DNA of 64,000 bases, from contig NC_014804.1 of assembly GCF_000151105.2 (NCBI RefSeq), positions 620,001 to 684,000 on the forward strand, written 5' to 3'. The notes under the pieces were generated by a model. That model did no database searches, was not told the DNA's origin, and saw nothing but the letters and a program-made list of their open reading frames with translations. Both the position numbers and the translations under genes were made by a program. Each line of letters opens with the position of its first letter. The first letter of the stretch is position 1. The DNA comes from Thermococcus barophilus MP. GTDB lineage: Archaea; Methanobacteriota_B; Thermococci; Thermococcales; Thermococcaceae. Below, one piece after another: positions 20,177 through 24,892 of the stretch.

Positions 20177-20292
20177 GTCAAATTTTAGTTTTGCAGTATT
20201 TATTTTTTTCTTGTTGTTTCAAATTCAAAATTTTAGAATTTTCTTGCTCAAAAAAGTTAAATACTAAAAGAGCAAACCAAAATCAGTAAGTG

Positions 20293-20310
20293 GAACGTTT
20301 CGAAACGTTC
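20293..20310. promoter_or_regulatory. 18-bp perfect palindrome upstream of the first secreted-protein cassette
   Basis: GAACGTTTCGAAACGTTC is identical to its reverse complement. It lies 55 bases before the start codon at 20365. A related, imperfect site (AACGTTATGAAACG) occurs at the same place before the paralogous cassette at 22489. Palindrome, spacing and duplication argue for an operator of the regulator encoded in each cassette. That assignment is inference. Confidence 0.65.
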
Positions 20311-20318
20311 TTTTCACC

Positions 20319-20333
20319 GGGTTCCTAAAATAA
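20319..20333 (+). promoter_or_regulatory. Conserved element GGGTTCCTAAAATAA
   Basis: This block recurs as GGGTTCCTAATATAG before the second cassette (22516-22530), 46 and 48 bases before the respective start codons. The AT-rich half could be the TATA box, giving a very short leader; alternatively an upstream TATA-like sequence (TTAAATACTA, about 20258-20267) is used. The sequence alone does not decide. Confidence 0.45.
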
Positions 20334-20364
20334 GCCAAAATCCCATTCATATCTGGTGATGTCC

Positions 20365-21555
20365 ATGAGAATCGCTTGGGCACTGATGGTGTTGCTTCTG
20401 GGGAGTTTAGTGCCATTGAGTGTAGCCCAAGAAGAAGCCAGCAACACAACAGAAATTCAGCAATTAAGCCTTGATAACGCAACAAGGGAGCAGATAATTG
20501 CAGAACAGCTTATCAACCAACTTATGAGATTGGATAAATTCACTGAAAAGAGAATTGAACCCATTAGAGATAAGCTTCCTGAGAACTCAACAATATTGAT
20601 ACATTATGAGAAAGCAAAAGAGTACAAAGAGAAGGCACTTGAAGAGTTTAACAACGGCAGTTATTACAACTCGATACTCGATGCATTAACGGCTATGCAC
20701 CATTACAAGATTGTTTTAAGGGAGCTAAAAGAAGGAAAAGAAAAAGTTGAAGATGCAAGAGAATGGATAAGAGCAGAGATAGAGAGGACAATCAGATACT
20801 TTAAATTCGTTGAAAAAACCATTAGAATGGCTGAAAAAGAGGGAATTGATGTCAGCAACTTGACAGTGCTTTATAATGAAACAAAGCAAGCATATAAGGT
20901 TGTGTTAGAGGATATTAAGGCAAAAGATTTTGGAAAAGCACGAGAAGACCTCCAAGTAGCGAAAGAAAAGAAGATGCAGCTCGACAAAGAACTGAGGAGA
21001 GTTAGAAAAGAGCTGGCTTATGCAAACGCTGACAGGATTGTAAAAGGGTTTTTAACGAGAACGAGCAGAGGTATTGCCTTTGCTGAGAGGGCTATACAAG
21101 AGGCAAAAATTAGAGGAATAGATACTGCCGAAGCGGAGGATAAGCTTGAGGAGATAAAAGCAATTTATGATGAAGTCAAAAGCTTGGCAGAACAAGAAAA
21201 ATGGGAAGATGCTTTAACGGTTATAATCAATAACAAAGCAGAGATTGATGCATTTTTCAGGAGCCTCAATAGAATTCATGAAAAATTCGCTGAAGAGAAA
21301 ATAAAAAGAGACGCTGGAGCATTTCTCCGGGAGATGCAAGATAGGATTAGAAAAGATACCAGAGCATTACAAGAGCTCAAAAGAAGAGGAGTTGATACAA
21401 GAAGGGCTGAAATTGAACTTAGAACCGCTGCACAGGAGTTACAAATAGGATTAAGGCTGCTCAAAGAAAGAAAGCCCGCCCTTGCAAGGGAACATTTTGG
21501 GATTGCACTGAGGCTCCTTTACAGTGTTGAGCAGTTTATCCTCTCTCATTCCTGA
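20365..21555 (+). CDS. Secreted helical-repeat protein, first cassette
   Basis: The 396-aa protein starts with a signal peptide (WALMVLLLGSLVPLSVAQ, likely cleaved near residue 22). The rest is almost wholly helical and charged, with four loosely repeated units of about 70-90 residues. Recurring landmarks are EGIDVSNL, RGIDTAEAE and RGVDTRRAE, each preceding a helix pair. Several N-glycosylation sequons (NTT, NAT, NGS, NLT) lie in the N-terminal half. There is no second membrane segment, so it should be secreted or peripheral. ATG 20365 has GGTG six bases upstream; GTG 20356 and ATG 20359 are alternatives. It is paralogous to the 22564 gene (shared YNETKxAYxVV). Function unknown; the transmembrane regulator gene follows after 23 bases. 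Confidence 0.8.
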   Translation: MRIAWALMVLLLGSLVPLSVAQEEASNTTEIQQLSLDNATREQIIAEQLINQLMRLDKFTEKRIEPIRDKLPENSTILIHYEKAKEYKEKALEEFNNGSYYNSILDALTAMHHYKIVLRELKEGKEKVEDAREWIRAEIERTIRYFKFVEKTIRMAEKEGIDVSNLTVLYNETKQAYKVVLEDIKAKDFGKAREDLQVAKEKKMQLDKELRRVRKELAYANADRIVKGFLTRTSRGIAFAERAIQEAKIRGIDTAEAEDKLEEIKAIYDEVKSLAEQEKWEDALTVIINNKAEIDAFFRSLNRIHEKFAEEKIKRDAGAFLREMQDRIRKDTRALQELKRRGVDTRRAEIELRTAAQELQIGLRLLKERKPALAREHFGIALRLLYSVEQFILSHS

Positions 21556-21578
21556 TTTTTTATTTTGGAGGTGAGTAA

Positions 21579-22409
21579 ATGAAGAAATCCATAACTCTGA
21601 TTAGTCTCGCCTTGCTTATAATTCCACTGGTCAGTGCTGAGTTTACGGTTTCTGAATTGGAACTCACCATTTACAGAGATGGGTATGTTGAAGTCAGTTA
21701 TCAAATCATTCCAAGTGATTATGCTGTTCAAATAAGTGTCCCTCTTTTAGGTGAGAATTACGAAAACCTCATTGTAGAAGATGAAAATGGCAATCCCCTT
21801 AATTTTGAGATTTCTGGGAATAGTGTGGTTATTTATGTTGATGATGCTCAACTTATAAAACTCTCATATTACACTCCTGATTTAACTTCCAAGCATGGAC
21901 TTGTTTGGACTCTAAACGTTTCTTCACCTTATCCGTTTAAGGTTGTGCTTCCCCAAAACGCAATAGTTGTTGATCTTAGCGATATCCCCCTTTCAATAAG
22001 CGCAAATGTAATCTCTATGCCACCCGGAAACCAAAGTATCTCATATACTCTGGGATATGGGGTAGAAAAAGCTTCCCAGAATTGGGTATACTATCTCATC
22101 ACAAGTGTTCTGATTATCAGCGCAGTGTTTATTGGAATAAAGCTGATCTCCAAAAGGTCCTCAAAGAGCATTAAAATTGACCGGGAGGCATTTCTAAAAA
22201 AGATGGAGAAGTTTGATCTAAATGACGAAGAAAAAAGCGCATTGCTGTATATCCTTGAAAAAGGTGGTAGAGCAAGCCAGGCTGAAGTAAGAAACGCCCT
22301 CGGACTTCCAAAAACCACTGCATGGAGGATGTTTAAACGTCTTGAGAAGCAAGGATTAGTAAAAATAATCCGGGGGAGGAAGGAAAACTGGGTGGAGCTT
22401 AAGTTTTAG
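21579..22409 (+). CDS. Membrane-anchored winged-helix regulator, first cassette
   Basis: The 276-aa protein has a signal-like N-terminal helix (residues 3-20), then about 145 residues of beta-rich domain that should face outside (YRDGYVEVSYQIIPSDYAV; YYTPDLTSKHGLVWTLNVS). One transmembrane helix (about 168-188) is followed by a cytoplasmic winged helix with QAEVRNALGLPKTTAWRMF and RLEKQGLVKI. This is a one-component transmembrane transcription regulator: an outside sensor joined to an inside DNA-binding domain, like halobacterial proteins with a C-terminal DUF7343-type HTH. It probably controls the gene in front of it. GGAGGTGAG precedes the ATG. Confidence 0.82.
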   Translation: MKKSITLISLALLIIPLVSAEFTVSELELTIYRDGYVEVSYQIIPSDYAVQISVPLLGENYENLIVEDENGNPLNFEISGNSVVIYVDDAQLIKLSYYTPDLTSKHGLVWTLNVSSPYPFKVVLPQNAIVVDLSDIPLSISANVISMPPGNQSISYTLGYGVEKASQNWVYYLITSVLIISAVFIGIKLISKRSSKSIKIDREAFLKKMEKFDLNDEEKSALLYILEKGGRASQAEVRNALGLPKTTAWRMFKRLEKQGLVKIIRGRKENWVELKF

Positions 22410-22488
22410 AAGCGGATAAATATAAGTAAACCCTCAGCCTTACATTTTCTCTCTGCAAATGCTTTTTTATAAAAGAGAAACTCGGAGA

Positions 22489-22502
22489 AACGTTATGAAA
22501 CG
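22489..22502. promoter_or_regulatory. Palindrome-related site before the second cassette
   Basis: AACGTTATGAAACG matches the core AACGTTTCGAAACG of the perfect palindrome at 20293-20310, differing only at the two central positions. The right half-site is degraded (AAACGAGC instead of AAACGTTC). It lies just downstream of a TATA-like TTTATAAAAG (22467-22476), where a repressor would block transcription, and upstream of the shared GGGTTCCTAA block. Confidence 0.5.
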
Positions 22503-22515
22503 AGCAAAGTCCAGC

Positions 22516-22530
22516 GGGTTCCTAATATAG
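22516..22530 (+). promoter_or_regulatory. Conserved element GGGTTCCTAATATAG
   Basis: The first ten bases are identical to the block at 20319-20328. It stands 48 bases before the start codon at 22564. Its conservation in an otherwise diverged, AT-rich leader implies a function shared by the two cassettes. Confidence 0.45.
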
Positions 22531-22563
22531 AGAGAACACATACTTACTATCAGGTGAGAACCC

Positions 22564-23874
22564 ATGAAGATGAGTATGAAAACACTGCTGGTGCTCTTCA
22601 TAGGGGCACTGATACCTCTAAGCACTGCATGGGCGGCAACCAACACAACCGCAGTGAGCAACGTTTTAGTGGTCAACGCCACGAACGTGACCAACACCAC
22701 TCCTGTTAACATGACCAACGTCACCAATACAACTACAAAGAACACGAGCGCTGTTCAGGCGTACAATCTGCTCCTGATACTGGACAAGGTCGCCAACTAC
22801 ACTGCAGGCCTGATGGCCGAGCTCAATGCGAGCAACGTCACGATCTCTAACTACACCCTTGATCTCTACTCCCAGGCTGAAACAGCCCGTGCCCAGGCGT
22901 GGGAGCTTTACAACACCGGCAACTACAGCGAGAGCATAAACGCCTCCATGAATGCCCTCTACCTCTACAAAGAGGCCATAGAGGAGCTCACCGACTACTA
23001 CGAGGAGCACAAGGAGAAGAAAATGGAGGAACAGTACGAGTACTATGAACTCATAATGGACGCTAAGGAGGAGCTCCAGAGAGCCAGAGAGTACTTCCCC
23101 TACGTGGAGAAAGTTATCGCGGAGGCCAAAGCAGAGGGCCTCAACGTCACCTACGTCATGGAGCTTTACAACGAGACTAAAGCGGCTTATATGGTCGTCG
23201 CCCAGGATCTTGCCAGCGGCAACGTCACAGCCCTCAAGGCGGACCTTGAGTATGCGGAAGAGCTAATGGACAAGCTTGAGGATGCCGTTGAGGAGCTCCA
23301 GGAGCAGATAGTCAGCGCAAAGGCCGATGAGATAAGCCAGGCCTTCATGGAGAAGCTCCAAGAGCAGATGAAGCTCATGAATGAACTGCTTGCCATGCTC
23401 CAGAACTCCACGATAAACGCCACGTACCTGCAGGAGAACCTCATGGAGCTCCAGACGATGTACGAGCAGTTCAACGCCCTCGTTGAGAGCGGCCAGTATG
23501 AGGAAGCCCTTGACATGCTCCACGACATCAACGAGGAGCTGAAGGAGATAATCGAAGATACCAAAGAGATAGAGAGGGAGTATAAGGAGGAAATAGAAGA
23601 GAAAGGAGAGCACAAGGATGAAAAGGACAGCGAAGATGAATACGAAGATGATCACAAGAAGACGGACGAGCACAAGGACGAATACACCAGTGATGAGAGT
23701 GAAGATGACCAGAATGGGAACTATGAAGAACAAAGCGACAATGATGATGGCAACACTGGAAACTACGAAGAGCAGGAGTCTCATGATGAGGATAACGGCC
23801 AGCATGAGGACTCTGAGGATAACAACGGAGACGGGGAACACAACGGTGAAGACGAGTCGGAGGATGAGGAGTGA
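22564..23874 (+). CDS. Secreted helical protein with an acidic tail, second cassette
   Basis: The 436-aa paralogue of the 20365 product has a signal peptide (LLVLFIGALIPLSTAWA), then an Asn/Thr-rich stretch dense in N-glycosylation sequons (NTT, NAT, NVT, NMT, NTS, NYT). Helical repeats follow (EGLNVTYVMELYNETKAAY; AQDLASGN). About 85 C-terminal residues are of low complexity: almost only D, E, N, G, H, K, S, Q and Y, ending ESEDEE. The tail is absent from the first copy and might bind metal ions or basic surfaces. Codon use is far richer in GC than in neighbouring genes (about 57% in bases 23281-23340, against 32% in 20701-20760). GGTGAG precedes the ATG. Function unknown. Confidence 0.8.
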   Translation: MKMSMKTLLVLFIGALIPLSTAWAATNTTAVSNVLVVNATNVTNTTPVNMTNVTNTTTKNTSAVQAYNLLLILDKVANYTAGLMAELNASNVTISNYTLDLYSQAETARAQAWELYNTGNYSESINASMNALYLYKEAIEELTDYYEEHKEKKMEEQYEYYELIMDAKEELQRAREYFPYVEKVIAEAKAEGLNVTYVMELYNETKAAYMVVAQDLASGNVTALKADLEYAEELMDKLEDAVEELQEQIVSAKADEISQAFMEKLQEQMKLMNELLAMLQNSTINATYLQENLMELQTMYEQFNALVESGQYEEALDMLHDINEELKEIIEDTKEIEREYKEEIEEKGEHKDEKDSEDEYEDDHKKTDEHKDEYTSDESEDDQNGNYEEQSDNDDGNTGNYEEQESHDEDNGQHEDSEDNNGDGEHNGEDESEDEE

Positions 23875-23950
23875 ACATCTTTTTAAGTATCTTTTTCTTG
23901 GTTTTAAGAATATTTTTAAGGGGAATTTCTTAACTTCTGGAGGTGCTGAG

Positions 23951-24892
23951 ATGAGGAGCAAAGCAGCAATAGTGCTGGCAATTGCACTCATGATTCTGCC
24001 TTTCATAAGCGGGCAGTACTCCGTCGAGTCTCTAAGCCTTACAGTCTATTCCGACGGGTACGTTAAGGTATCTGAGGTCATTATCCCAGAAAACTACACG
24101 GTCAGCTTTTCCATATCACTTCTCGCCACCAACGTTGAAGGGCTGACCGTTATCGATGAGAATGGGAATCCTCTACCGTACAAAATAAACGGTTCCATTC
24201 TTACCGTATACTTCGAAAACGCCATCCCAATTAAAATAACTTATTATACTCCCGATCTTACATCAAAGAAAGGAGCAATATGGAGTGTCCATTTCAGTTC
24301 AACCATCCCCGTTAAAATCACGTTTCCAGATAACGCTGTTATAGTTGACCTTACAGATATACCTCTCGAGATAAATGGGAACTCAATTCTCATGCCCCCT
24401 GGAAATCAGACGGTTTCTTATGTCCTTGAATACAGACCAGTAGGAACTGAGGCTCCAGCTGCCCCAACATTGGGAACAACCACTAAATCCTTCAACTCAA
24501 CGGTACCATCAAGCCCAGGCTCTTCATCTCAGAGTTCAAGCACTTCCAGCGAAGGCTCCATGAACTGGACGATGGTTGGTATATTGACCCTCCTTGCCCT
24601 TGCCGCCGGCGGGGGCTTTGTCTACATGAGGCGTGGAGGAGGAGAAAAAGCCATCGGCATCAGCAGGGAGGACTTTGAGAGACGCCTCAAAGAGTACGAA
24701 CTGACAAAGGACGAGGAGAAGGCCCTGCTCTACCTGTTTGACAGGGGCGGGAAGGCTAAGCAGGCCGAAGTCAGAGAGATGCTTGGGATTCCTAAGACGA
24801 CCGCCTGGAGGATGTTCCAGCGCCTTGAGAAGCAGGGGCTGGTGAGGGTTTACAAGAAGAAGAGAGAGAATTGGGTGGAGCTAAGGCTTTAA
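23951..24892 (+). CDS. Membrane-anchored winged-helix regulator, second cassette
   Basis: The 313-aa paralogue of the 21579 product has the same layout. It has an N-terminal signal-like helix, an external beta domain (YSDGYVKVSEVIIPENY; YYTPDLTSKKGAIW), a Ser/Thr-rich linker of about 45 residues not found in the first copy, one transmembrane helix (TMVGILTLLALAAGGGFVY), and a cytoplasmic winged helix (QAEVREMLGIPKTTAWRMF). ATG 23951 is set by GGAGGTG; the frame is open far upstream, but that part shadows the acidic tail of the previous gene. The sensor half is AT-rich (35% GC in 24181-24240) and the HTH half GC-rich (60% in 24781-24840), which suggests recombination between cassettes of different origin. 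It overlaps metG by four bases. Confidence 0.82.
   Translation: MRSKAAIVLAIALMILPFISGQYSVESLSLTVYSDGYVKVSEVIIPENYTVSFSISLLATNVEGLTVIDENGNPLPYKINGSILTVYFENAIPIKITYYTPDLTSKKGAIWSVHFSSTIPVKITFPDNAVIVDLTDIPLEINGNSILMPPGNQTVSYVLEYRPVGTEAPAAPTLGTTTKSFNSTVPSSPGSSSQSSSTSSEGSMNWTMVGILTLLALAAGGGFVYMRRGGGEKAIGISREDFERRLKEYELTKDEEKALLYLFDRGGKAKQAEVREMLGIPKTTAWRMFQRLEKQGLVRVYKKKRENWVELRL

Follow-up and report, generated by a model that had tools for sequence, protein, structure and literature searches.

Two gene pairs for a secreted helical protein and a membrane-bound winged-helix regulator in Thermococcus barophilus: candidate envelope-sensing operons

The genome of Thermococcus barophilus MP contains two successive gene pairs, each consisting of a gene for a secreted protein and a gene for a membrane protein with a predicted DNA-binding domain, which raises the question whether such a pair is a signalling unit and how the exported protein takes part in it. 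Both pairs lie in the window, by which we mean the whole stretch of 64,000 nucleotides that was analysed. The initial annotation described them as duplicated, self-contained one-component signalling systems. In the reading that we prefer, and to which we assign a probability of about 0.6, each cassette would be a self-regulated operon that senses the envelope, and thus an archaeal analogue of the bacterial co-component systems.

Genes, proteins and origin of the two cassettes

All four genes are located on the plus strand, and their starts (20365, 21579, 22564 and 23951) were upheld. Cassette 1 begins with an operator-promoter block (20292–20332), followed by the gene for SP1 (20365–21555), a secreted helical-repeat protein of 396 aa with a signal peptide; the name SP is used here for the signal-peptide helical-repeat protein encoded by the first gene of each cassette. 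The second gene (21579–22409) encodes regulator 1 (276 aa), composed of a signal peptide, an external beta domain, one transmembrane (TM) helix and a cytoplasmic winged helix. In cassette 2, the block (22487–22529) is followed by the genes for SP2 (22564–23874; 436 aa), a secreted helical protein with a Thr/Asn-rich N-terminal stretch and an acidic C-terminal tail, and regulator 2 (23951–24892; 313 aa), which is built like regulator 1 except that a longer, Ser/Thr-rich linker leads to the TM helix. Next comes the gene for methionyl-tRNA synthetase, in convergent orientation. As had been proposed from the sequence, there is homology both between SP1 and SP2 (27% identity over 316 aa, E=1e-26) and between regulator 1 and regulator 2 (43% identity over 310 aa, E=1e-93).

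The topology that had been guessed for the regulators agrees with the AF2 model of regulator 1 (mean pLDDT 87), obtained with alignments of relatives, which contains a signal helix (residues 2–13), a beta domain (22–158), a TM helix (165–191) and a winged helix (202–274). The winged helix scores above the curated Pfam cut-offs for TrmB and DUF7343 and also matches HTH_24. With a DNA-binding domain and a predicted TM region in one chain, the regulators are candidate transmembrane transcription regulators (TTRs). Outside the winged helix, the proteins of both cassettes gave no match that exceeded the curated cut-offs of Pfam or NCBIfam. The beta domain is conserved (consensus YYTPDLTSKEG and MPPGNQSISY) and is similar, at low TM-score, to the beta domains found in M1 aminopeptidases and in an oligosaccharyltransferase chain (Ost1-type); this ectodomain led us to reject an assignment to the CRISPR regulators Csa3/CasR (PADLOC), which combine a CARF domain with a winged helix. 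A defence system was rejected as well, the PADLOC matches covering mainly the TM/winged-helix region. SP1 was predicted to be all-helical past the signal peptide (mean pLDDT 87), with approximately four three-helix modules as judged by eye. Its fold gave no significant structural match in the PDB, searches of Pfam, NCBIfam and the PDB gave no meaningful relative, and SP sequence matches are coiled or designed helical proteins.

The view that the pairing arose by duplication had to be abandoned, since the two copies represent divergent lineages that co-occur in several genera. The GC3 of SP2 is 70.4%, as compared to 42 ± 6% for 48 genes of the window. Cassette 2 is 88.5% identical at the DNA level to a locus in another genus (G032), over 22486–24890 only, whereas cassette 1 shares 80–82% DNA identity with its orthologues in three genomes of the same genus (G002, G004 and G005). 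In the latter genomes cassette 2 is absent, and metG is found directly after regulator 1. To judge from these sequence comparisons, cassette 2 is therefore most likely a horizontally acquired xenologue that was transferred as one unit, including its operator; a local duplication was rejected on the GC3 value and the identity with the other genus.

Conserved pairing and a shared promoter element

The conservation of the pairing, which the initial annotation had suggested as a check, was borne out by a survey of 81 genomes with 79 SP homologues, 71 of which are directly followed by a same-strand gene for a beta-domain membrane protein. Twelve of the 71 partners are only 188–197 aa long and have a signal peptide, a beta domain and a TM segment, without a winged helix; the operator is nevertheless kept at the promoters of these cassettes (L105, L108, L113, L119, L126, L130, L131, L134, L138, L146, L156 and L159). 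A contig end accounts for one of the eight SPs without a partner, leaving seven lone SPs. A further 25 regulators remained. In 14 of them, among which are the ones from other families of the class, the gene immediately upstream encodes a diverged SP; a profile made without the distant SPs recovered these sequences, together with the G062 SP, at E values from 1e-28 to 1e-6. Nine others form a DUF134-linked subfamily, one (L186) is truncated where its contig ends, and one (G072) is distant. In held-out genomes, 37 of 40 regulators are preceded by an SP, two are at contig ends and one has no SP, i.e. 37 of the 38 testable cases show the pairing. The beta domain is present in 98 of 115 genomes surveyed for the phylum, a scan with a single protein as query gave seven MAG loci, and the module is near-universal in Thermococcales.

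Some individual loci deserve mention. The DUF134-linked regulators (L171, L173, L174, L176, L178, L180, L182, L184 and L185) adjoin or overlap a DUF134 gene, lack an SP, and mostly carry a PRTTxWRIL helix. The distant regulator homologue of G072 (L194) is from outside the class, and has a secreted helical protein downstream, not detectable as an SP homologue (E about 2), and GAAACGCGCATTCC upstream. Two SP genes (L145 in G034 and L160 in G043) have one in-frame stop, TAA and TAG, respectively, at about the same place. A conserved U-tract terminator between the SP and regulator genes was considered and rejected: T5 or longer occurs in 43 of 60 such gaps, but also in 6 of 13 gaps of the window, with the gap of cassette 1 counted among these 13.

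The related palindrome that had been noticed upstream of each pair is part of a larger element. In cassette 1, tandem GRAACG half-sites with the perfect 18-bp palindrome GAACGTTTCGAAACGTTC (20293–20310) are followed by CACCGGGTTCC and the TATA-like CTAAAATA; an imperfect relative (22487–22502) is found in cassette 2, where the block reads GAAACGTTATGAAACG...GGGTTCCTAATATA. In the 2.06-Mb genome, GRAACGTTNYGAAACG has exact matches at two sites only, one before each cassette, and it was not found in shuffled windows. The block consensus, GRAACG-n4-GRAACGnnCnTTYC followed by TCCTAAAATA, is common to several genera and is also found in further families of the class. Upstream of SPs it takes the form GGAACG-n4-GAAACGTTCnTTTCACCGGGTTCCTAAAATA, and in families f2 and f4 of the class GRAACG-n2/3-CGTTYC or close variants adjoin TCCCTTAA or TTCCTTAA. 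The end of the TATA-like box mostly lies 30–36 nt, typically 32 nt, before the SP start codon. With a promoter profile built from 24 elements, cassette 1 was the only strong match in this genome (E=1.2e-13), and strong matches in relatives were mainly cassette promoters, in dozens of genomes. The operator-promoter signature was found in 81 of 92 SP promoters as compared to 46 of 826 control windows. An own element at E <= 1e-3 was present in 22 of 40 held-out loci, and most of the other held-out cassettes that were printed have variant forms by eye.

The six bases preceding the TATA-like box are mostly NGTTCC or NGTCCC, and the A pair of the BRE consensus is present in 0 of 69 cases. In the light of what is known of archaeal promoters, activation of the promoter is favoured over repression on two grounds, because the operator abuts the box on its upstream side and because the BRE is weak, its A pair never being present.

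In relatives, the element also precedes a family of proteins of about 110 aa with a GYLFKN motif, a DUF257 gene and a few others. The GYLFKN family has no Pfam match (L226:1555-1923, L228, L230, L231, L234, L236, L240 and L121/L257); one of its genes directly precedes a cassette in G019, and no homologue was found in this genome. A remnant of the element was observed at a GYLFKN-gene locus (L243) in G028, a genome without a detected regulator or SP, and no such ORF was found there. Since the element is also present upstream of lone SPs, of the pairs that lack a winged helix and of a small number of unrelated genes, regulation in trans appears likely from its distribution. Thus, topology, conserved pairing and an operator-like element support the one-component system as initially described, but not its being self-contained. 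SPs with neither a regulator nor the upstream element, which were taken to speak against such a system, were looked for. All seven lone SPs carry the element or a recognisable variant, the weakest being the G032 copy L143, and the one-component signalling idea was therefore not refuted.

A possible mechanism and its alternatives

According to the preferred reading, the regulator would be inserted in the membrane with the beta domain outside and the winged helix inside, and the secreted SP would be the cognate partner of the beta domain. The regulator would change its state according to the whereabouts of SP, which may be bound or else occupied in another place on the surface. The winged helices would bind the tandem GRAACG operator, which adjoins the TATA box of this operon, and would most likely activate transcription, so that SP output would feed back on its own synthesis. 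We infer the SP–beta-domain contact, DNA binding by the winged helix, activation over repression, and the sensed signal.

The strongest hints of an interaction between SP and the beta domain come from two observations. One is that the pair is kept without a winged helix: the twelve operator-bearing pairs of this type suggest that the relation between SP and the beta domain is the core of the system. The other is that distances among SPs match those among ectodomains (rho 0.79) better than after within-genome re-pairing (mean 0.57 ± 0.06, maximum 0.71 of 300), although co-divergence of neighbours can result from linked transfer alone, an effect that this comparison excludes only partly. Three observations count against an envelope-sensing operon. 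In the divergent subfamily, the nine regulators have a DUF134 gene and not an SP as their partner, and the palindrome was not found in this type; the metG-linked subfamily (seven genomes) has SP and likewise no palindrome that could be found; and seven SPs have no adjacent regulator at all.

The most serious competitor is a plain transmembrane one-component regulator, of which the beta domain senses lipid, sugar, temperature or strain, with SP as a mere surface or structural output that never touches the sensor. TTRs are a known class, common in archaea and with a high share among the signalling genes of Thermococci according to the part of the account consulted (PMC10269533), and the occurrence of the element at SPs without a neighbouring regulator, and at a few non-SP genes, is as for plain targets. 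On the other hand, a pure output has no need for a beta-domain partner that is unable to bind DNA, as kept by twelve SPs, nor is the matched co-divergence of SP and ectodomain expected of it, and we consider this explanation possible but rather unlikely. It is a good deal less probable that SP itself is the signal sensed by the beta domain and drives its own promoter, a protein autoinduction reporting density or surface coverage, in which exchanged cassette types would represent different specificities.

The cassettes without a winged helix, and an SP with helical repeats and with extensions that are charged or rich in Thr, could also fit a structural complex of SP and the beta-domain protein under the S-layer, to which the winged helix was added later for reporting assembly. 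This is slightly more doubtful still: as a rule cassettes have both a winged helix and the operator, in other families of the class as well, and the forms lacking a winged helix therefore look derived. It is highly improbable that the palindrome is the site of a different, cytoplasmic regulator, with the membrane protein acting at other places, even though SPs without an adjacent regulator keep the element, since all 54 tabulated genomes with SP genes except the incomplete MAG G041 have at least one full-length regulator, and recognition helices are altered in the classes without the palindrome (PKTTVWRMV and PRTTxWRIL vs PKTTAWRMF).

With sensor, partner and operator named, in a group with genetically tractable members, this Thermococcales module opens the question to direct tests. 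Natural experiments on specificity are at hand in the pairs that lack a winged helix and in the cassettes that have been exchanged horizontally.

Relation to known systems

In the CpxP-CpxA system, an exported helical protein is controlled by the sensor that it is thought to modulate, but that system uses a two-component kinase and not a DNA-binding membrane protein. In the literature that we found, there was no relevant work on COG2512, DUF7343 or the COG title, and no description of the SP-regulator module. The TTR class shares the single TM helix and the HTH with the regulators described here; the family, its secreted partner and the operator are not described in the portion of that account that was available (PMC10269533).

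The archaeal case that we found to be studied biochemically is that of ArnR/ArnR1 of Sulfolobus acidocaldarius, a membrane-bound one-component regulator acting at surface-structure promoters (PMC6396743). The predicted architecture of our regulators is similar in that respect. However, in the sections consulted, ArnR/ArnR1 is described with an N-terminal HTH, HAMP-like and sensor parts and two C-terminal TM helices, and no secreted partner gene is described (PMC6396743), whereas AF2 placed a winged helix at the C terminus of regulator 1 behind one TM helix; membership of the ArnR family was rejected on this basis.

Bacterial co-component signal transduction systems are represented by ToxR/ToxS, VtrA/VtrC and TcpP/TcpH (PMC9214523, PMC11323476). 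No homology of either protein to proteins of these systems was detected. The cassettes differ from them in that the winged helix is found at the C terminus, preceded by a signal peptide and an external domain, that the partner gene comes first, and that the partner is soluble and, by AF2, all-helical instead of a lipocalin-like barrel. What they have in common is a two-gene operon in which a membrane transcription factor is paired with an exported protein, the co-evolution of the two proteins as far as the SP/ectodomain correlation indicates it, and, as predicted here, DNA binding from the membrane. By this analogy, co-component systems are the closest functional parallel to the SP-regulator cassettes of Thermococcales.
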